NCBI GenBank assembly: GCA_031082155.1
Contig: JAVHLL010000024.1
Location: forward strand, 1-45,370
Direction of reading: 5' to 3'
Length of the DNA: 45,370 nt
From: Thermodesulfovibrionales bacterium
Lineage (GTDB): Bacteria; Nitrospirota; Thermodesulfovibrionia; Thermodesulfovibrionales; SM23-35
Part shown: positions 876-43,945 of the stretch, in pieces
Position numbering within the stretch: position 1 is the stretch's first letter
Layout of the letters: every line of letters starts with the position of its first letter
Made by a program: the position numbers and the translations under genes
Notes under the pieces: model-generated
What the model was told of the DNA's origin: nothing
The model's input: only the letters and a program-made list of their open reading frames with translations
Databases searched by the model: none

Positions 876-958
876 AAAAACCCCCATAACCTATCAATCT
901 AAAAAGAGAATTTTTAAAATGAACCTCTAACCCATAGTATCTATAGAATTCACGGATG

Positions 959-1074
959 AATACGGCGGACACAGTATTTTCGCTCATTCTCGGTCTACCG
1001 CCCTCTGAGGGAAATTCTGTTCCGATATATCTCCACAGAATTTAAATCCGCAAAAATACTGTGTCTGCTGTATT
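959..1074. repeat. Structured dispersed element, copy 1 (116 nt)
   Basis: The outer arms 959-980 and 1053-1074 are inverted repeats pairing at 20 of 22 positions, the two exceptions being G-T wobbles. Inside are a perfect 9-bp hairpin (AAATTCTGT 1012-1020 with ACAGAATTT 1035-1043) and a short CCCTC/GAGGG hairpin (1001-1011). The 24 bases 973-996 are the exact reverse complement of 18803-18826 in the copy inside the menaquinone cluster, and TAAATCCGC (1043-1051) is shared too. The outermost arm bases differ completely between the copies. It lies in the 615-bp gap between the zinc-ribbon gene and the HsdR-N-like gene, with no open reading frame. It could be a MITE-like element or a structured RNA. 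Confidence 0.75.
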
Positions 1075-4943: not shown

Positions 4944-5027
4944 GTCATTATCCAGCTTGACCGGATTATCTAGTTCTTTTTCCAATAAGTTTTGATATTG
5001 GATTCCCCAGTCAAGCCGGGGAATGAC
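4944..5027. repeat. GTCATTCC-type palindromic repeat, copy 1
   Basis: The left arm 4944-4970 begins GTCATTATCC; the right arm 5001-5027 ends GGGGAATGAC. They pair imperfectly around a shared CTTGACYGG/GTCAAGCCGG motif. Three relatives occur at 15544-15615, 31694-31790 and 36534-36642. This copy separates uvrA from the transporter genes. Confidence 0.7.
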
Positions 5028-5108
5028 AGAGAAATATCTTTGGGGTAATCTCTAATTTATATAATGATAGAGGGGTGTTTTGAATATTCTGGAACGGTTG
5101 CAGCGCGA

Positions 5109-15543: not shown

Positions 15544-15615
15544 GTCATTCCCGCTTGTCGGGAATCTTTCTTCTTTCAACCTTTCGATGAGAGATTCCGG
15601 ACAAGCCGGAATGAC
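15544..15615. repeat. GTCATTCC-type palindromic repeat, copy 2
   Basis: Arms 15544-15570 and 15589-15615 (27 nt each) match as inverted repeats at about 24 positions, around an 18-nt loop. The left arm begins GTCATTCCCGCTTGTCGGG. It sits inside the menaquinone cluster between mqnC and the phosphorylase gene, where it could form a strong RNA hairpin in the transcript. Confidence 0.8.
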
Positions 15616-15648
15616 ATTGAGACCCTCTTAGGAGTCTGGGAATAACTT

Positions 15649-16716: not shown

Positions 16717-17576
16717 GGGCCCACGCCTGCATGGGAGACGCTGAATTCCAGTTCGGGTACTGCTTGAATCTCCCCGATCTCTGCCGCCATCCGGTAGAAG
16801 TGAAGAAGTCCCTTCCGATATGGTTTGTCAAAGTCAAACCGCAGGGACCTGAAATATTCCATTAAGAACTCCGCGGTAAAAGGCTCCCATTTCGCGGCAT
16901 ATTCTGCGATTTCAGCGAGGTGCTCCATGGAATACTCCATTGATCTTTTGAACATGTCAAAGACCTGATCACAGAATGCAGACCGTGTCTCAGCAAAGTT
17001 GCGGGTTAATGCCCAGACGGCGTACACCATTTTTTCCCCCGACAACTTTTTCCACTCTGATCCCATATCGTAGATATAAAAACCCCCGGGATTGACGGAA
17101 TAGTGCAGCGCTGCATCGCCTATAAGCAGGATAGCATCCGTTTGGCGAAAGATTGTATTCACGTCGGGAGGACAGAGAAAATATTCGGGCGAAACTTTAT
17201 ATCCATGTTTGAGAACAAGCTTTAGCAACACATGTGACGTAGCAGATGCGCCAGTTAGCCCTATTCTTTTCCCGGATAGTTCTCCAATCGGGAAACGGCT
17301 GATAAGGAGGATGCTTTTCACAGCCCCGTCAGAACTCACGGTAAAATCCGGGAAAAGGACGAGCGACTCAGCGTTGCGCGCATACTCGATAGAGGAGATC
17401 GGAGAGATGTCCAGTTCGCCCCGCATAAGCTTCTCGTTCAATGCGGTGGGAAGGCCCTTGATAAGTTCGATATCCAGCAAGGCATGACTTTTTACCAGTC
17501 CGTAATACAGGGGGAGGCAGTTCAGAAACTGTATATGCCCAACCCTAGGTCTCAACAGGCACCTCTTGCCCGCCAT
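16713..17576 (-). CDS. mqnA: Chorismate dehydratase
   Basis: MqnA dehydrates chorismate to 3-[(1-carboxyvinyl)oxy]benzoate, the first committed step of the futalosine pathway. The fold is a periplasmic-binding-protein-like two-lobe domain. Visible family text: RVGHIQFLNCLPLYYGL at the N-terminus, ELDISPISSIEYA, GLTGASATSHVLLKLVL and ILLIGDAALHY. I start at the ATG at 17576 (287 residues); the frame extends to a TTG at 17618 inside mqnE, which has no support. It overlaps the mqnE 3' end by 32 bp and mqnC by four, so the three genes are translationally linked. Confidence 0.94.
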   Translation of the reverse strand: MAGKRCLLRPRVGHIQFLNCLPLYYGLVKSHALLDIELIKGLPTALNEKLMRGELDISPISSIEYARNAESLVLFPDFTVSSDGAVKSILLISRFPIGELSGKRIGLTGASATSHVLLKLVLKHGYKVSPEYFLCPPDVNTIFRQTDAILLIGDAALHYSVNPGGFYIYDMGSEWKKLSGEKMVYAVWALTRNFAETRSAFCDQVFDMFKRSMEYSMEHLAEIAEYAAKWEPFTAEFLMEYFRSLRFDFDKPYRKGLLHFYRMAAEIGEIQAVPELEFSVSHAGVGP

Positions 17577-18660
17577 TGTTATAAACCCTGATGATATTGT
17601 ACAGCGTATCCCGTTCAACAGGGATTCTTCCCGCCTCGGCGATCAGAGACAGCAGTTCTTCCCTTGATATGGATTGGTCGGTCTCGGCGCCTGCGGCGTG
17701 GGTGATCTTCTCTTCGACCACTGTGCCGTCGAGGTCGTCAACACCGAAGAGAAGAGAAAGCTGGGCGACCTTCAGTCCGAGCATGATCCAGAAAGCTTTT
17801 ATATGATCGAAGTTATCGAGGACGAGCCTCGATATCGCCAGCATCTTCAGGCTTTCAAAAGCGGTCGGCTTTTTCAATTCCGGAAGTTCTGTGTTCTGAG
17901 GATGAAATGGCAGAGGGATGAACGATTGAAACCCGCCTGTTTCATCCTGAAGCGCTCTGAGAGTCAGGAGATGCTCGATGCGTTCCTCAGGACTCTCGAT
18001 ATGACCGAAAAGCATGGTCGCATTCGACTTGAGGCCCAGTCTGTGCGCTGTCTTCATAACTTCCAGCCACTCATTGCTGTTTGCCTTTTTGGGACAGACT
18101 GCCTCCCGGACCCGGTGATTCAGTATCTCGGCGCCCCCTCCGGGAAGAGAACCCAATCCGGCATCCTTCAGTTTCAGGAGCACGTCTCTCTTCGAGAGCT
18201 TCGCTATCTTCGCAAAATAATCGATCTCTACCGCGGTGAATGCCTGGATATGCACCTCGGGCATCTCCTGCCTGAGTGAGGAAATCGCGTCGAGATAATA
18301 ATCGAACGGGAGATCGGGATGGAGCCCGCTTACAATATGGAACTCTGTTATGCCGAGATGTCTTGCCGACCGGGCTTTTTCGAGCACCTCGTCAAGAGTC
18401 ATTGCATACGCATCGGCATCATTTTTGTCCCTGCTGAACGCGCAGAATTTGCAGCGCGATACGCAGATATTCGTCAGGTTAATATGTTGGTTTACATTAA
18501 AAAAGACATGTTGTCCTGTCTTCCGTTCTTTTGCTCTGTTTGCGAGGCGGCCAAGCTGGAGAATGTCATTCGAGTCCATGAGCGTCATGGCATCCTCCTT
18601 TATAAGGCGCTCAGCGTTTTCAATTTTTGTCTGGATATGAGTTAAATTCTCTTTAGACAT
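17545..18660 (-). CDS. mqnE: Aminofutalosine synthase
   Basis: Radical SAM enzyme joining the MqnA product to the adenosyl moiety of SAM, giving 6-amino-6-deoxyfutalosine. From the ATG at 18660 it is 371 residues, with the cluster triad Cys66, Cys70 and Cys73 (NICVSRCKFCAFSR), HIVSGLHPDLPFDYY (MqnE type), SLPGGGAEILN and DDLDGTVVEEKI. A GTG two codons earlier is too close to the AGAGGA ribosome binding site (18671-18676), so ATG 18660 is preferred. It is separated from ubiX by 205 bp containing the structured element at 18711-18836. Since MqnE makes the amino form, a deaminase would be needed before a 6-oxopurine phosphorylase could act; none is seen in this window. Confidence 0.95.
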   Translation of the reverse strand: MSKENLTHIQTKIENAERLIKEDAMTLMDSNDILQLGRLANRAKERKTGQHVFFNVNQHINLTNICVSRCKFCAFSRDKNDADAYAMTLDEVLEKARSARHLGITEFHIVSGLHPDLPFDYYLDAISSLRQEMPEVHIQAFTAVEIDYFAKIAKLSKRDVLLKLKDAGLGSLPGGGAEILNHRVREAVCPKKANSNEWLEVMKTAHRLGLKSNATMLFGHIESPEERIEHLLTLRALQDETGGFQSFIPLPFHPQNTELPELKKPTAFESLKMLAISRLVLDNFDHIKAFWIMLGLKVAQLSLLFGVDDLDGTVVEEKITHAAGAETDQSISREELLSLIAEAGRIPVERDTLYNIIRVYNNGGQEVPVET

Positions 18661-18710
18661 AAGCACTATTTCCTCTTACTTTATTTAATGCATAAATTCC
18701 TTCATTGTTT

Positions 18711-18836
18711 GACAGGATATAGTGTTTGAGCGGATTTATTTTGCCGATATTCATACAGCGTATAGTATTGATAATAAAGAGGCAAAATACCTCGGAGGTC
18801 GAAGACCGAGAATGAGCGAAAATACTATATCCTGTC
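18711..18836. repeat. Structured dispersed element, copy 2 (126 nt)
   Basis: Outer arms GACAGGATATAGTGTTT (18711-18727) and its near-perfect complement at 18820-18836 pair at 16 of 17 positions with one G-T wobble. Inside are a perfect 9-bp pair TATTTTGCC (18737-18745)/GGCAAAATA (18781-18789) and a CTCGG/CCGAG hairpin (18791-18810). Bases 18803-18826 are the reverse complement of 973-996 in the first copy, and GCGGATTTA (18730-18738) is shared. It sits in the only large gap of the menaquinone cluster, between ubiX and mqnE, so both DNA and the operon transcript carry it. Confidence 0.75.
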
Positions 18837-18865
18837 ATGGTACCCATCGTCTATAAATAATCATA

Positions 18866-19447
18866 TTATCTCTTCCACGCCTTAAACAGGGCATGTTCAA
18901 TCCTTAATGTATTCAAAACCTTTCCCACAATAAAGTTGACCATGTCGTCAATCGTTTTCGGGTGATGATAAAAAGCCGGCATCGCGGGGAGAACCTGTGC
19001 CCCAGCCCTTGCTGCCTGTGCCATATTTTCCAGATGGATAAGATTCAAAGGGGTCTCCCGGACAACAAGTATAAGCTGCCTCTTTTCCTTGAGCGCGACA
19101 TCAGCAGCCCTTTCGAGCACATTGCCCGATATGCCATTCGCTATCGCAGCCAGTTTACCCATGCTGCAGGGAACAACGATCACCGCTTCAGGCGCGCTGG
19201 TGCCGCTCAGGAAAGGCGCTTCAAAATCAGTGTTCTCCCAGACTTTTATATAAGACCTGTGTTTTTGTATACCGAGTTTTCTGAAATCTGTGAGACCCTC
19301 AACCCCAAGTTCTTCCTGCATTACCGCTTTCCCGGCAGAGGTCAGCACAACATGGACCCTGTGCTTCCTGCCCGCAAGTTGCTGCATCAGTCTGATGCCG
19401 TAGACACTGCCGCTTGCTCCGGTTATTCCGATTACATACTCAGACAA
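18866..19447 (-). CDS. ubiX: UbiX-family flavin prenyltransferase (probable MqnM)
   Basis: UbiX makes prenylated FMN, the cofactor that UbiD-type decarboxylases need. The protein has the N-terminal GITGASGSVYGIRLMQ FMN-binding motif, VVPCSMGKLAAIANGI, NVLERAADVALKEKR, and LVVRETPLNLIHLENM. I start at TTG 19447 because the frame upstream runs into ubiA, GGGAGGGGG lies directly before it, and family proteins begin at this point (193 residues). It overlaps the ubiA stop by eight bases. With ubiA and ubiD it forms the late part of the futalosine route (MqnP, MqnM, MqnL). Confidence 0.92.
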   Translation of the reverse strand: MSEYVIGITGASGSVYGIRLMQQLAGRKHRVHVVLTSAGKAVMQEELGVEGLTDFRKLGIQKHRSYIKVWENTDFEAPFLSGTSAPEAVIVVPCSMGKLAAIANGISGNVLERAADVALKEKRQLILVVRETPLNLIHLENMAQAARAGAQVLPAMPAFYHHPKTIDDMVNFIVGKVLNTLRIEHALFKAWKR

Positions 19448-20315
19448 TTTTCCCCCTCCCGAACAGCACCTCGGCTGCAGCAAAGAAAAATACCAGGACA
19501 CTGAGAATCCCGTTCATTGTGAAAAAAGCCATATTCAGCCTGGACAGGTCGTTTGGCTTTATCAGACTGTTCTCATAGGCGAGGAGAGACCCTGCGATGA
19601 AAACCCCTGCGAAATAGAAAAAGCCGAGGTTTAGACGGATCCCGGCCCAGAGAAACAGGAATATCGAGGTCAGGTGGAAAAGCCTGGTCAAGAGAAGAGA
19701 TGCGTGAATACCAAAACGTACAGGGATCGAATAGAGTTTCTCCTTCAGGTCGAAATCCCTGTCCTGCAGTGCATAGAAGATGTCAAAACCGGCAACCCAC
19801 AAAAGCACCGCAGCCCCGATTATAAAAGGCTCCGCGCTGATAACGTTGGTCACCGCAACCCATGCCCCGACCGGGGCAAGTCCCAGGCAGATGCCAAGGA
19901 CAAAATGGGAAAGCCAGGTGAACCTTTTTGTATAGGGATAAAGAATAAAGGGTATGACTGCAAAAGGCCATAAAAACCGGCAGATCGGAGCAAGGCTATA
20001 GACAGCGAGCAGGAACCCCCCCAGGCTCACTAGAGAAAATATGATTACATTCGAAACAGAGAGAAGCCCTTTCGGCAGTGCTCTTTCCGCTGTTCTCGGG
20101 TTCCGCCGATCGATTTCCAGGTCAATAAGACGGTTCGCCGCCATTGCAAAACTTCTCGCTCCGACCATTGCCAGGGTAATCCAGAAGAGCGTTCTCAGCC
20201 CTGGGAATTTCATCTCCGCGAGAAAGGCTCCGAGATACGCAAAGGGGAGGGCGAAGATGCTGTGCTGGAACTTGATCATCTCAAGATAAATTTTGATTTT
20301 ATCGAAGGAAAACAT
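19440..20315 (-). CDS. ubiA: UbiA-family prenyltransferase (probable MqnP)
   Basis: Integral membrane prenyltransferase of 291 residues that attaches the polyprenyl tail to the aromatic ring. Both Asp-rich Mg-diphosphate motifs are present: NRLIDLEIDRRNPRT (61-75) and DIFYALQDRDFDLKEK (178-193). About eight to nine hydrophobic segments fill the rest. Within this cluster the likely acceptor is 1,4-dihydroxy-6-naphthoate, as for MqnP, rather than 4-hydroxybenzoate; this is inferred from the neighbours. An 86-bp gap with a GC-rich repeat separates it from ubiD. Confidence 0.92.
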   Translation of the reverse strand: MFSFDKIKIYLEMIKFQHSIFALPFAYLGAFLAEMKFPGLRTLFWITLAMVGARSFAMAANRLIDLEIDRRNPRTAERALPKGLLSVSNVIIFSLVSLGGFLLAVYSLAPICRFLWPFAVIPFILYPYTKRFTWLSHFVLGICLGLAPVGAWVAVTNVISAEPFIIGAAVLLWVAGFDIFYALQDRDFDLKEKLYSIPVRFGIHASLLLTRLFHLTSIFLFLWAGIRLNLGFFYFAGVFIAGSLLAYENSLIKPNDLSRLNMAFFTMNGILSVLVFFFAAAEVLFGRGKIV

Positions 20316-31676: not shown

Positions 31677-31693
31677 CGTGCGGTTATTGCTCT

Positions 31694-31790
31694 GTCATTC
31701 CGGTTTGTCCGGAATCCTTTTTATAACAATCCCCCAAATCTCTCTTGTTTGAAGGGTGCCAAAGAAAGATTCCCGACAAGCGGAAATGAC
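31694..31790. repeat. GTCATTCC-type palindromic repeat, copy 3
   Basis: The left arm starts GTCATTCCGGTTTGTCCGG (31694-31712); the right arm ends CGACAAGCGGAAATGAC (31790). It fills the 176-bp gap between carA and carB, so it lies within the pyr operon transcript, where a strong hairpin could influence carB expression. Confidence 0.75.
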
Positions 31791-36495: not shown

Positions 36496-36533
36496 GAAGT
36501 GCGTAGAATCTGTCTTAAAACTAAGAATAATCC

Positions 36534-36642
36534 GTCATCCCCCGGCTTGACCCCCTCTGTGAGTCGTAGACCGATCAAATTGGAGGACGGAATCCAGTTT
36601 TTTCAAAAACTTCTGGATTGTCCAGTCAAGCCGGACAATGAC
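36534..36642. repeat. GTCATTCC-type palindromic repeat, copy 4
   Basis: The left arm begins GTCATCCCCCGGCTTGAC (36534-36551) and the right arm ends GTCAAGCCGGACAATGAC (36642). An inner hairpin AATCCAG (36591-36597)/CTGGATT (36613-36619) is present. It lies between metK and ahcY. Confidence 0.72.
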
Positions 36643-36701
36643 AGAATCGGAGTTTTTTAACAGGCGCTCTATCTGTAAATAATGGTCTCATCGGAGGATA
36701 A

Positions 36702-39385: not shown

Positions 39386-42300
39386 ATTAAGAAATTAATT
39401 TTATCGAATATTATTGCGGTATTCCTTGTTATTTATTTCCTTGCACCGGACGTTTCAGAAGCTATTACTGCCACACGAGTAAGAGGGTGCAATCTGCCAT
39501 CAGAATCTTTTGCAGTCCGGAATACAACTGATTATTCGTTAAGATATGGTATTAGCTGGACAGGGGAAGGCATTTCCCGTATCCTTCTTGACCCAGACTT
39601 CATACGTTGCGGGCTCATTGGATCTTACTATAACTGTCTTCTTCCAGGTGATACCGGCATGATAATTGTAGATTTTAGAACAGATGATTTAGCGCCGGGT
39701 ACATATAAAGGTGATTTTACTATTAGATATGCAGAACTTTCAACAGCACCACAAATAGAAGGGACTGACAACGAACCCATTACATTAACAGTTCTACCTA
39801 AAACCATAATCGTATCCCCAGACTCAATTTCGGCAACTGTAACCCCAGGCTGTTCGGTAAGCCCTCAAACCCTGACTATTGACAACGAGGATCCTTGTAA
39901 TTATTCTTTCAGTTATTCTACGGACCAAACTTGGATCTTTGTCCAAGTCGCAGCGAATATCTGGTGTGGTTGGTGGAGCCCCTGTGTTATTGGCGCCAAC
40001 TCTGCGGGAAAACTGAGAGTAACCATCTATCCTTATTCATTAACGCCAGGAACTTATACCGGGAATATCTACATAAATGGATATCTTTTCAACAAGACTA
40101 TTGCAGTTATATTAACGGTCACAGGTAACGATGATGCTGATGGAGATGGACACTATATCCGGGAATCCTGCAAGACTCCGAATGATGATTGTAATGATGA
40201 TGACCCTGCTGTTTATCCAGGAGCACATGAACTCTGTGATGGGAAAGACAACAATTGTGACGGAGTTATCGACGAAGGATGTTGCGAGGATAAAGATGGA
40301 GATGGGTATTATATTTATAACTCTACAGGTTGTCCTGAAGGTAATGACTGTAATGACAATGACCCGGAGATATATCCCGGGGCAGCAGAAACATGTGACA
40401 ACAAGGACAATAATTGCAATGGTGAAACTGATGAAGGGTTAAGTACTGATGCAGATGGTGATGGACAGTACACCCCCGATTCCTGCAAAACGCCGAATGA
40501 TGATTGTAATGACAACGACATAGAGATATATCCTGGCGCTGAGGAACTCTGTGACAATAAGGATAATGACTGTGATGGTGAAACTGATGAAAACTGTGCG
40601 TGCAATTATACCGATACAGGCTCTGTTACTTCCATTTCAAATGGCAAATATCACCATGCGCAGGATATTTCAGGCGATATTACATTAATCTACGACAGTT
40701 ATAGGGCATCAGAAGGAGCGCTTGGAAGAGGATGGACGCATTCATATGATACAAGAATTGAGACTGACACGGATGGTTCCCTTGAATTCACCGAGAACGG
40801 ATATGCTATCAATTTCAGGCTATCAGGAGATATCTATAAAGCAGAGCCTCGTTCGGGTATTTCTGCCGAAATCACTGTTAATTCTGATGGCGCTTACACC
40901 CTGAGAATACAAAGTGGATTACTGTATCAATTTAACCCGGATGGTCGTCTCTTATCAATCACGGACAGAAATGGAAAGCAGACTGTGCTCACGTACACGG
41001 AAAGATTTTTGTCTTCTATTATTGATTTCAATGGAAGAACCACAGGGTTTATATACGATAACTTAAACAGAATTACACAGATAACCGATCCCGCAGGGAT
41101 GAAAACAGTAGTCATATATAACCCGGAAGGACTTCTCTCATCTCTTATCTATCCGGACGGTAGTGCGTGGACTTACTGTTATGGTTCCTCAGGAAGAATG
41201 GTCTCAAAAACAGACTCTCTTGGTTCAACAACTTTTTATATATATGACTCAGAAGGCAGAATGATACAGGCAACAGATGCTGAGGGTCATACAAAGAATC
41301 TTTCTTATGACCATGCAAATCAGACAACAACTGTCACAGAATGGAATGGAGGCATATGGACATACAGATATGACGAATACCTAAATGTGCAGACAGAGAT
41401 TACTGACCCACTCGGAGGTATCAAGAGAAGAGTTTATGATGACTACAAAAGCCTTCTTTCTGAAACTGATGAATTGTGGAATACCACAACATATACCTAT
41501 GACTTTGAACGCAAAATGACAGCAATGACCGATAGCATAGGAAACACTACCGCATACACTTACAATACCTATGGACAGGTGACAAGCATAAGAGACCCTC
41601 AGGGGAATAGAACCCTTTACGAATATGATGCGAATGGGAATCTGACATCTACTACCGATCCAACAGGCGCAACAATCCGATCTTGGCATGATTTAAGAGG
41701 AAACATTACCGGCATAACCAATGCCATTGGACAGACAACCGCATTTGCCTATGATCAATACAACAATCTTGCTTCTGTTACCGACCCCACAGGGGCGACC
41801 ACAACCTTTACTTACGACGTCCTGGGAAATATTACCAGCCAGAAAGATGCATCGGGGAATATTACCGGATTTGAATACAATGTCCTGAACCAACCTATAA
41901 AAATAACTGACCCAATGGGTAACATAACTGCATATACCTATGATTCCAAAGGGAACAGGACATCAGTAACAGACGCCAATGGAAATGTAACGGGATACGC
42001 ATACAATTACAAGGGACAGGTAATAAAAGTCAGAGATGCCATAGACAATATCACGCAATACACGTATGGTGGAGGCACAGGATGTCCATCCTGCAGAGGT
42101 GGAACAGGGGATAAACTTATCTCCATAACTGATGCCAGGGGAAACGTAACCATCTATGAATATGATTTGCTCGGGAAGCTCTTAGGAGAAACAGACCCTC
42201 TTAGAAACACAATAGCCTACTCCTATGACGCCAAAGGGAATCTTATATCAAAAACCGATGCCAATGAGCATACTCTATACTATACTTACGATTCATTAAA

Positions 42301-43945
42301 CAGACTGATTCAAAAGACTTATCCGGACGGGACATCAGAAAACTATACATTCGATTCAAAAGGCAACATCCTTACTGCCACAAATAAGAACATATCCTAT
42401 GGGTTTACCTATGATGGAAATGGGAGAATGATAAAAGTTACAGACTCCAACGGTAAAGTCATTGAGTACGATTATGATTTGACAGGCAACAAAACCCTGC
42501 TTATCTATCCGGATGACTCAATAGTCAACTATACGTATGATAATGCAAACAGATTGAGTGCTATAATCAATGGCGGGGGAAGGTCGACAACCTACAGTTA
42601 TGACAGCGCGGGAAGAAAGGTAAGGGTTGCCTTGCCCAATGGTACATATACCACCTATACGTATGACAGCAGTGGCAGGTTAATAAATCTTACCCATAAC
42701 ACCTCGACAAACTCTGTTATTAACAGCTTCAACTACACGCATGATAACGTTGGCAACAGACTTACAAAAACAGAGATCGATACCAAATATGCATACGGTT
42801 ATGACAAAATCTATAGGCTTCTCCAAAGCATACCTACGAAGCTTCCAAGATATGACCAGGAACAGGAGAATAAAGCTGAAATCTTCAACTATGACCCGGT
42901 TGGAAACCGTCTCACCGGTCCGGAGCCGATTGATTATTACGAATACAACAAAGGCAATCAATTAATCGATGAGAGAAAAGAACAATATGAGTATGACCAC
43001 AATGGAAATCTGATCAGTAAGACAGAGACAAGTGGTGAGGGAACAGTAAATATTTGGGCATATCAATACGATTATGAGAATAGACTTGTAAGAGTGATCA
43101 AAGAAGAGCCTGATGAGACAAAGACTGTTACTTTCAAGTATGATCCATTTGGGAGAAGGATAGAGAAGAAGGTCACAGAAAATCCCTCTCCACTGGTGGG
43201 AAAGGATATGGGTGAGGGGGAAACAAAGATTTATACGTATGTCTATGATAAAGAGGATATAATCCTTGAATATCTGATAAAGACAGAGAATGGTGAAACA
43301 AGGACTGAGATAACAAAATATGTGCACGGCCCTGGCATTGATGAACCACTTGCTATTGAAAGAAAAGGAGATGTTTATTCCTGTCATGCAGACGGCCTCG
43401 GTTCAATTGTTGCGCTTACAGATTCAAAACAGAAAGTGGTTGAGAGCTATACCTATTCGTCATTTGGAGAACTGAAGAGACAGGGAGATAAGGTCAAGAA
43501 CACCTTTACCTTCACCGGAAGGGAATGGGATGAGGAGACAGGGTTGTATTTCTATCGGGCGAGATATTATGATGCGAAGGTCGGGAGGTTTATCAGCGAA
43601 GATCCCATTGGGTTTGAAGGGGGGGATGTGAATTTTTATGCATATGTTAAGAATCGACCAACGGTGCTTGTTGATCCATTGGGGCTTGAAGGTTGCGGCC
43701 CTTTCAAAATGCATCTTCCTGATGATTATAATTTGAAAGAATGTTGCGACAGACATGATCGGTGTTATGATCAATGCAAGCCAAAACCATATTGCGATGC
43801 TATATTCTGTGATTGTTTGTTTGATAAATGTATGAAACAGCCCGGTGATAAGCAGAAGGCATGCTTTTGTCGTTTCGTTGCTTATTGTGCAGCTGTCAAT
43901 AAATTCGGATTGATTTCATATATAGCGGGATGTTTGACTGAATAG
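39386..43945 (+). CDS. Secreted Rhs/YD-repeat polymorphic toxin with phospholipase A2-like C-terminus
   Basis: The frame opens after a stop at 39374 and has no ATG, GTG or TTG until ATG 39659. It nevertheless encodes a signal peptide (KKLILSNIIAVFLVIYFLAP, cleavage near SEA) from an ATT at 39386, five bases after AAGGAG (39375-39380). I therefore start at ATT: 1519 residues. Order: signal peptide 1-26; Ig/BACON-like region to about 245; three MopE-type metal-binding repeats (about 250-404: DADGDGHY, DCNDNDPEIYPGA, NKDNNCNGETDEG); YD repeats and Rhs shell (about 430-1390); the core end RYYDAKVGRFISEDPIGF to VDPLGLE; then a tip of about 84 residues. The tip has CCDRHDRC (His1457-Asp1458) matching the PLA2 histidine signature, and CDAIFCDCLFDKC (Asp1471) like group XII PLA2. 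It is probably exported and delivers a disulfide-rich lipase to rivals. Residues 1266-1279 come from an inserted repeat. Confidence 0.85.
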   Translation: MKKLILSNIIAVFLVIYFLAPDVSEAITATRVRGCNLPSESFAVRNTTDYSLRYGISWTGEGISRILLDPDFIRCGLIGSYYNCLLPGDTGMIIVDFRTDDLAPGTYKGDFTIRYAELSTAPQIEGTDNEPITLTVLPKTIIVSPDSISATVTPGCSVSPQTLTIDNEDPCNYSFSYSTDQTWIFVQVAANIWCGWWSPCVIGANSAGKLRVTIYPYSLTPGTYTGNIYINGYLFNKTIAVILTVTGNDDADGDGHYIRESCKTPNDDCNDDDPAVYPGAHELCDGKDNNCDGVIDEGCCEDKDGDGYYIYNSTGCPEGNDCNDNDPEIYPGAAETCDNKDNNCNGETDEGLSTDADGDGQYTPDSCKTPNDDCNDNDIEIYPGAEELCDNKDNDCDGETDENCACNYTDTGSVTSISNGKYHHAQDISGDITLIYDSYRASEGALGRGWTHSYDTRIETDTDGSLEFTENGYAINFRLSGDIYKAEPRSGISAEITVNSDGAYTLRIQSGLLYQFNPDGRLLSITDRNGKQTVLTYTERFLSSIIDFNGRTTGFIYDNLNRITQITDPAGMKTVVIYNPEGLLSSLIYPDGSAWTYCYGSSGRMVSKTDSLGSTTFYIYDSEGRMIQATDAEGHTKNLSYDHANQTTTVTEWNGGIWTYRYDEYLNVQTEITDPLGGIKRRVYDDYKSLLSETDELWNTTTYTYDFERKMTAMTDSIGNTTAYTYNTYGQVTSIRDPQGNRTLYEYDANGNLTSTTDPTGATIRSWHDLRGNITGITNAIGQTTAFAYDQYNNLASVTDPTGATTTFTYDVLGNITSQKDASGNITGFEYNVLNQPIKITDPMGNITAYTYDSKGNRTSVTDANGNVTGYAYNYKGQVIKVRDAIDNITQYTYGGGTGCPSCRGGTGDKLISITDARGNVTIYEYDLLGKLLGETDPLRNTIAYSYDAKGNLISKTDANEHTLYYTYDSLNRLIQKTYPDGTSENYTFDSKGNILTATNKNISYGFTYDGNGRMIKVTDSNGKVIEYDYDLTGNKTLLIYPDDSIVNYTYDNANRLSAIINGGGRSTTYSYDSAGRKVRVALPNGTYTTYTYDSSGRLINLTHNTSTNSVINSFNYTHDNVGNRLTKTEIDTKYAYGYDKIYRLLQSIPTKLPRYDQEQENKAEIFNYDPVGNRLTGPEPIDYYEYNKGNQLIDERKEQYEYDHNGNLISKTETSGEGTVNIWAYQYDYENRLVRVIKEEPDETKTVTFKYDPFGRRIEKKVTENPSPLVGKDMGEGETKIYTYVYDKEDIILEYLIKTENGETRTEITKYVHGPGIDEPLAIERKGDVYSCHADGLGSIVALTDSKQKVVESYTYSSFGELKRQGDKVKNTFTFTGREWDEETGLYFYRARYYDAKVGRFISEDPIGFEGGDVNFYAYVKNRPTVLVDPLGLEGCGPFKMHLPDDYNLKECCDRHDRCYDQCKPKPYCDAIFCDCLFDKCMKQPGDKQKACFCRFVAYCAAVNKFGLISYIAGCLTE
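43181..43220. repeat. Palindromic repeat inserted in the rhs gene
   Basis: CCCTCTCCACTGGTGGG, then AAAGGATATGGGTGAGGGGG, belongs to the same GC-rich family as 20321-20399 and the carB insertions. It encodes PSPLVGKDMGEGE between two YD repeats, in frame. Confidence 0.65.

Follow-up and report, generated by a model that had tools for sequence, protein, structure and literature searches.

A previously uncatalogued dispersed family of folded DNA repeats in Nitrospirota

Two loci and their family

The window, i.e., the whole stretch of 45,370 nucleotides analysed here from a Thermodesulfovibrionales bacterium (host genome, G000), carries two loci, 959-1074 (copy 1) and 18711-18836 (copy 2), which an earlier note described as a structured element with a conserved core and copy-specific self-complementary arms. 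Are they members of a repeat family, and what keeps their stems paired? The 24-base identity reported between them is exact: 973-996 and 18803-18826 are perfect reverse complements, and over 30 nt (967-996 and 18803-18832) the match is still 93%. The AAATCCGC block is present at 1044-1051 on the plus strand and at 18730-18737 on the minus strand, in the same relative order. We call the strand bearing GCGG...GAGAATGAGC the folding strand (G-strand); in copy 1 this is the minus strand, in copy 2 the plus strand. In comparison with dinucleotide shuffles, 959-1074 folds with a z score of -8.2 on the plus and -6.5 on the minus (folding) strand, and 18711-18836 with -7.2 on the plus (folding) and -5.6 on the minus strand; the fold of either locus was matched by 0 of 200 shuffles. 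The statement that the arms differ completely between the copies was too strong, because the inner ~17 nt of the arms are homologous (AGTATTT..), and it is the outer part of the arms and both hairpins that differ.

With copy 1 as the query, BLAST gave 11 matches from the host genome and hits in 26 of a set of 61 genomes made up of the host and its relatives. We then built a covariance model from an alignment of 28 copies (A1, both window copies included), and the search for further copies with such a model, which had been proposed as a check, recovered 13 distinct complete copies from the host genome, 108 from the relative G052 and 34 from the genome G165. In the host genome there were 17 hits, of which the other four are weak mirror images on the opposite strand and were left out. 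Covariance-model matches, the E-values of which are rough, occur in 57 of 296 genomes (mostly draft MAGs) sampled across Nitrospirota, mostly in one order. A pattern scan across 84,980 species yielded 104 stretches, and 78 of the 80 matches listed are titled Nitrospirae, Nitrospira, Nitrospirota or Thermodesulfovibrionales, the other two being from one MAG titled Nitrospinota. There is overlap among these sequence sets, and duplicates were removed by sequence only. The element is ~110-150 bases long, many Nitrospirota genomes have between 10 and more than 100 copies of it, and no match to the family was found in phage, plasmid and viral collections. The earlier note had recognised no described family, and Rfam likewise gave 0 matches above the gathering score for the window and four further loci, with none at E≤1 for copy 2. 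Neither copies with identical arms nor a lack of other copies, the two outcomes that would have spoken against the original description, was found. The original observation is real and larger than claimed, and the two window sequences are members of a previously uncatalogued dispersed family of folded DNA repeats.

Fold, covariation and strand asymmetry

One fold is common to the family, with a ~19-bp outer stem, two internal loops, hairpin A and hairpin B. Read 5' to 3', the G-strand consists of an outer arm of ~19 nt (AAAGGCAGGRYATAGTATTT consensus), GAGCGG, ATTT, hairpin A, CCTCGGAG, the hairpin B stem, CGAGAATGAGCG and the outer arm again. GAGCGG lies opposite GAGCGA, forming a tandem G.A, two G-C pairs and a GG/GA mismatch pair, so that the internal loops are GA/GA and GG/GA; the GG/GA loop is kept in almost all copies, and hairpin B has a GAG bulge. 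In copy 1 (959-1074, minus strand; covariance-model match of 92.1 bits), the 5' arm of the outer stem in minus-strand reading is at 1052-1074 and pairs with the 3' arm at 959-981. The conserved GCGGATTT block on the 5' side of the internal loop is at 1044-1051, hairpin A of the AAATTCTG...CAGAATTT type at 1012-1043, hairpin B (CTC..GAG bulge..GAG) at 989-1010, and the conserved GAATGAGCG block on the 3' side of the internal loop at 981-989, all on the minus strand. In copy 2 (18711-18836, plus strand; 104.6 bits at 18710-18839), the outer stem is formed by 18711-18729, including the GA of the tandem G.A, and 18819-18836, and between them on the same strand are the GCGGATTT block (18730-18737), hairpin A (18738-18789), hairpin B, CCTCGGAGGTCGAAGACCGAG (18790-18810), and the GAATGAGCG block (18810-18818). 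Hairpin A is interchangeable among copies. Its types, namely TTTTGCCGATATTC..GAGGCAAAA (the commonest in the family and the one in copy 2), AAATTCT..AGAATTT, TCCCGAT..ATCGGGA and GGCAGCCC..GGGCTGCC, are unrelated to each other, and each is self-complementary. The apical loops of hairpins A and B also contain palindromes of other repeat families (CCACCCCTCTTAAATTCCCCCCTT.. and CTTCGCCACAGGCGAATCCGCTGGGGCGGAG; G052 loci L448, L435, L442, L443 and L447), as if the loops were landing sites.

In A1, 94.6% of the stem cells are paired, compared with 34-49% in slid registers, and changes on both sides of a pair are seen in 116 cells versus 28.5 in shuffles. The family alignment therefore bears out the proposal of a conserved core with copy-specific stems under compensatory change. 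A second set was collected by short core motifs without use of arm pairing, giving 221 copies, of which 206 were kept and 15 with fewer than 11 of 18 Watson-Crick pairs, possibly due to indels, were set aside. Among 205 of these motif-found copies, Watson-Crick complementarity is 66-97% up to pair 18 (89-100% with G-U) and falls to background (~27%) by pair 23. This sharp drop defines where the core ends.

The mismatches in the stem are strongly asymmetric between the strands. In the motif-found copies, which are not phylogenetically independent, the G-strand shows G.T versus A.C at 298:58. The excess of G.T is found at all 18 stem positions, and the ratio is still 156:49 without the three positions richest in G.T. 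It also holds in every arrangement of neighbouring genes, including genes that run along the G-strand (37:12), and transcription-linked mutation is therefore no explanation. The ratio is 42:0 in G165, counted on covariance-model copies, which are biased towards intact ones. Moreover, the G-strand is the stabler fold in 181 of the 206 copies, by a median of 5.5 kcal/mol. An excess of G.T over A.C on one strand suggests that the folding of that strand is selected, and we read it as selection for folding of the G-strand, either as RNA or as single-stranded DNA. Such wobble asymmetry amounts to a demonstration, from sequence only, of which strand must fold. For bacterial dispersed palindromes in general, it makes the choice among RNA, single-stranded DNA and mere transposon end directly testable.

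Two forms, their placement and their turnover

Some copies have terminal inverted repeats (TIRs) that match an insertion sequence. An outer repeat, TARCCCRNATTATTCATAA / TTATGAATAATNYGGGYTA, is present in 60 of the 206 copies (~29%; long form), mostly at a fixed spacing, versus 2.3% of control flanks, and is absent in the other 146 (~71%; short form). Window copy 1 has one remnant of it (928-946, minus strand, four mismatches to TTATGAATAATNYGGGYTA), and copy 2 has none. The same ends bound a complete 1.66-kb insertion sequence in G003 (L402, G003:C11:80897-82552; TIRs TAGCCCAGATAATTCATAA / TTATGAATTAAGTGGGCTA), the 462-aa ORF of which is an IS1380-family transposase (PF13701, E 1.6e-154; NF033539). 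Since the outer repeats match an IS1380 insertion sequence, one form of the element is MITE-like. The compensatory structure proposed in the earlier note is upheld, and the view that the element is not a simple MITE holds only in part, as ~29% of copies, copy 1 among them, have IS1380-type outer terminal repeats. A PF13701 transposase is found in 6 of 27 element-bearing genomes and in neither G000 nor G052; the cognate transposase may have been lost from the genomes without it.

Most copies lie between operon genes. Copy 2 is located between two genes of the same direction, named here by their Pfam matches: a UbiX-like flavoprotein gene (18866-19501, minus strand; PF02441), which ends ~29 bp to its right, and a CofH/MqnC-like radical SAM gene (17545-18666, minus strand; PF04055 and PF19288), which starts ~44 bp to its left. 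With ORFs called by length only, a crude way of classing neighbours, the commonest setting has both neighbours against the G-strand (59 of 109 covariance-model copies versus 14 the opposite way; 100 versus 27 in the motif-found set). Measured from the core, the median distance to the stop codon of the gene upstream is ~10 bp, and the following start is ~22 bp away. Judging from their translations, the neighbours are ordinary operon genes (thiamine, cobalamin, guaA, trpE, gatB). Because in short-form copies the upstream stop codon falls at the place of the outer repeat, the short form is probably a separate unit and not an eroded long form. Between same-direction genes, the G-strand of the short form is antisense in 84 of 99 cases (84:15; P = 8e-13 versus even), whereas the long form shows no orientation bias (16:12). 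A bias that is strong in TIR-less copies and absent in TIR-bearing ones points either to selection once copies are in place or to insertion that is itself strand-specific. Replication strand was rejected as its cause: orientation concordance within contigs of G052 is only ~0.6, shows no trend with distance, and is 0.5 for copies less than 5 kb apart. The host genome also has two close pairs in which the copies face opposite ways, 40-290 bp apart (G000:C2:74149-74442 and G000:C32:24820-25327).

Comparison of sites among relatives, as the earlier note had advised, shows both occupied and empty sites. The copy 2 junction lacks the element in all four relatives examined (G001, G010, G005 and G003), and other palindromes are there in G001 and G005. 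The one in G001 belongs to a group of dispersed GTCATTCC..GGAATGAC palindromes, which are also found in the window at 4999-5030, 15544-15616, 31693-31790 and 36531-36645. G001 does have copy 1, its arms compensated and its hairpins A and B different, the orthologous hairpin A being TCCCGAT/ATCGGGA. Several junctions that are occupied in some species have 4-bp overlaps or 5-15-bp gaps elsewhere, e.g., thiS-thiG; another candidate empty site, examined at C3:60617, turned out to be a deletion remnant in G001. Turnover of copies is high between species of one genus. On the other hand, 16 gene pairs have a copy in more than one genome, and at comparable shared junctions the arm differences comprise 25 compensated changes, 15 G-U shifts and 13 broken pairs. 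Such retention of pairing is not required by mobility alone and suggests a function in place, although part of the shared-junction copies may reflect re-insertion rather than descent.

Candidate mechanisms and related systems

Several candidate movers were examined. Reverse-transcriptase mobilisation (retron, DGR or group II) was rejected, as 17 of 26 copy-rich genomes lack RVT_1. Y1 (RAYT-type) transposases are present in 23 of the 26; among 48 Y1-transposase loci scanned, a copy lies somewhere in the fetched stretch at three, and none of 15 RAYT gene flanks inspected is bordered by the element. Most of these flanks have palindromes of their own, e.g., TTAGGGACACATCCC / GGGATGTGTCCCTAAT (L316-L321, L334 and others), and mobilisation by RAYT was rejected. 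No autonomous partner was apparent beside the copies, where the neighbours are core operon genes and no recurrent transposase is among the top clusters. An enzyme for the short form was accordingly not found among reverse transcriptases, RAYT, IS1380 transposases or neighbour genes.

We tentatively favour, with a probability of about 0.45, a family of small non-autonomous mobile elements, spread across Nitrospirota and organised around the folded core, with a long form driven by IS1380 and a selected single-strand fold. The long form would be moved in trans by an IS1380-type transposase, and the short form would be copied by a process that requires the folded G-strand, as single-stranded DNA or RNA. 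The folded strand would be recognised through the conserved internal loops, with the purine mismatches as likely contact points. The orientation bias could then reflect selection after insertion, antisense placement keeping the better-folding strand out of operon mRNA, or alternatively strand-specific insertion. It is possible, if rather doubtful, that the short form moves as an element in its own right, with neither terminal repeats nor a target motif, and is copied via the branched hairpin of one strand. Recognition through the conserved purine mismatches would in that case leave the arms to drift freely while still pairing, and would resemble the recognition of attC by shape, but in a dispersed, cassette-free element acted on by some enzyme.

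As the main alternative, the resident copies may have been adopted by their hosts, having spread as mobile DNA and now mostly working in place, for example in intercistronic mRNA stability, processing or translation insulation, or as a DNA hairpin for a host protein. The strong stop-to-start placement, the 84:15 orientation of the TIR-less copies, the pairing kept at shared junctions and the lower-scoring copies in G052 and G165, the arms of which are very diverse and yet almost all intact, are consistent with such adoption. We consider it somewhat unlikely, given the high turnover within one genus and the prevailing orientation, which puts into the mRNA the complementary strand with its A.C mismatches, so that an mRNA role would use the worse-folding strand. 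Less probable again is an ordinary IS1380-derived MITE, in which the compensation would arise without selection, by hairpin-templated DNA correction of quasi-palindromes, and short forms would be long forms that have shed their ends. It would account for the IS1380-matching repeats of 60 copies, and in V. cholerae ERIC is known to lose its terminal repeats (PMC2267715). Templated correction, however, would also erase the conserved mismatches, yet the GG/GA loop persists, and it gives no reason for the 298:58 ratio; the stop codon of short forms, at ~10 bp from the arm, also falls inside the would-be terminal repeat.

Two further explanations seem very improbable. One is an attC-like recombination site, a post-stop hairpin folding on the antisense strand and used by a tyrosine recombinase, which has the same placement logic, antisense folding strand, variable stems and conserved unpaired bases. 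RYYYAAC / GTTRRRY boxes at both ends were found in 0 of the 206 copies, however, and the copies have ordinary operon genes as neighbours instead of lying in cassette arrays. The other, to which we give equally little weight, is a family of free-standing non-coding RNA genes transcribed from the folding strand. The purine-rich GA/GA and GG/GA internal loops and the tolerance of G-U are typical of RNA, but in most copies only ~22 bp lie upstream on the folding strand before the start of a coding gene, and a promoter is therefore not obvious in many unrelated contexts.

Among known systems, ERIC (IRU) is a ~127-bp intergenic stem-loop with tens to hundreds of copies that is classed among the MITEs, influences mRNA stability at the 3' ends of genes and can lose its terminal repeats (PMC10969869, PMC2267715). 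The Nitrospirota repeat shares with it the long stem-loop, the multiple copies and the intergenic position. In kind, though not as a family, it is ERIC-like, being multi-copy, intergenic, mobile and built on a conserved stem-loop. ERIC, however, is enterobacterial and thus of an unrelated phylum, and the Nitrospirota repeat adds hypervariable compensated stems, interchangeable hairpins and a favoured strand. With bcr1 and other stem-loop repeats of Bacillus, Pseudomonas and others (PMC2267715) it has in common a dispersed family with a common predicted secondary structure. A 2008 catalogue of 92 families in 40 genomes makes no mention of Nitrospira or Thermodesulfovibrio (PMC2267715), and no description of the Nitrospirota repeat was found in Rfam or in the papers searched. 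The long-form terminal repeats, TARCCC..ATTATTCATAA, match those of IS1380 insertion sequences as in IS1380 MITEs, but most copies are without these ends and the conserved core is not part of the insertion sequence. REP/BIME with RAYT are similar in being many-copy intergenic palindromes, and RAYT genes exist in most of these genomes; RAYT loci, however, carry other palindromes, and the element has a REP-type GTAG or GGAG tag at its end in only 5 of 206 copies and none in 201. Integron attC sites also have variable self-complementary arms, conserved unpaired bases, one functional strand and a position after stop codons, whereas the element has no R boxes and no cassette arrays. By this comparison the Nitrospirota repeat works most like ERIC, bcr1 and similar structured intergenic repeats, not as a proven member of any described family. 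New are a wobble signature specific to one strand, hairpins that can be exchanged, and arms that vary greatly yet always pair, in an element that extends through a phylum at up to more than 100 copies per genome and sits inside core operons (thiamine, cobalamin and menaquinone-type genes).

The window also bears other repeats. A second dispersed repeat at 1145-1309 has a 27-bp inverted repeat, AGGGCTGTAGCTCAATTTCCGAATCGA, and an interior with GAGACCGAAGACGGAGCGGAGGTCTC; it has many copies in G001, and at the orthologous G001 locus the interior is inverted between its repeats. An ORF of 1428 aa (39659-43945) contains, at 40132-40591, tandem protein repeats with units of ~156 bp that are 66-79% alike.
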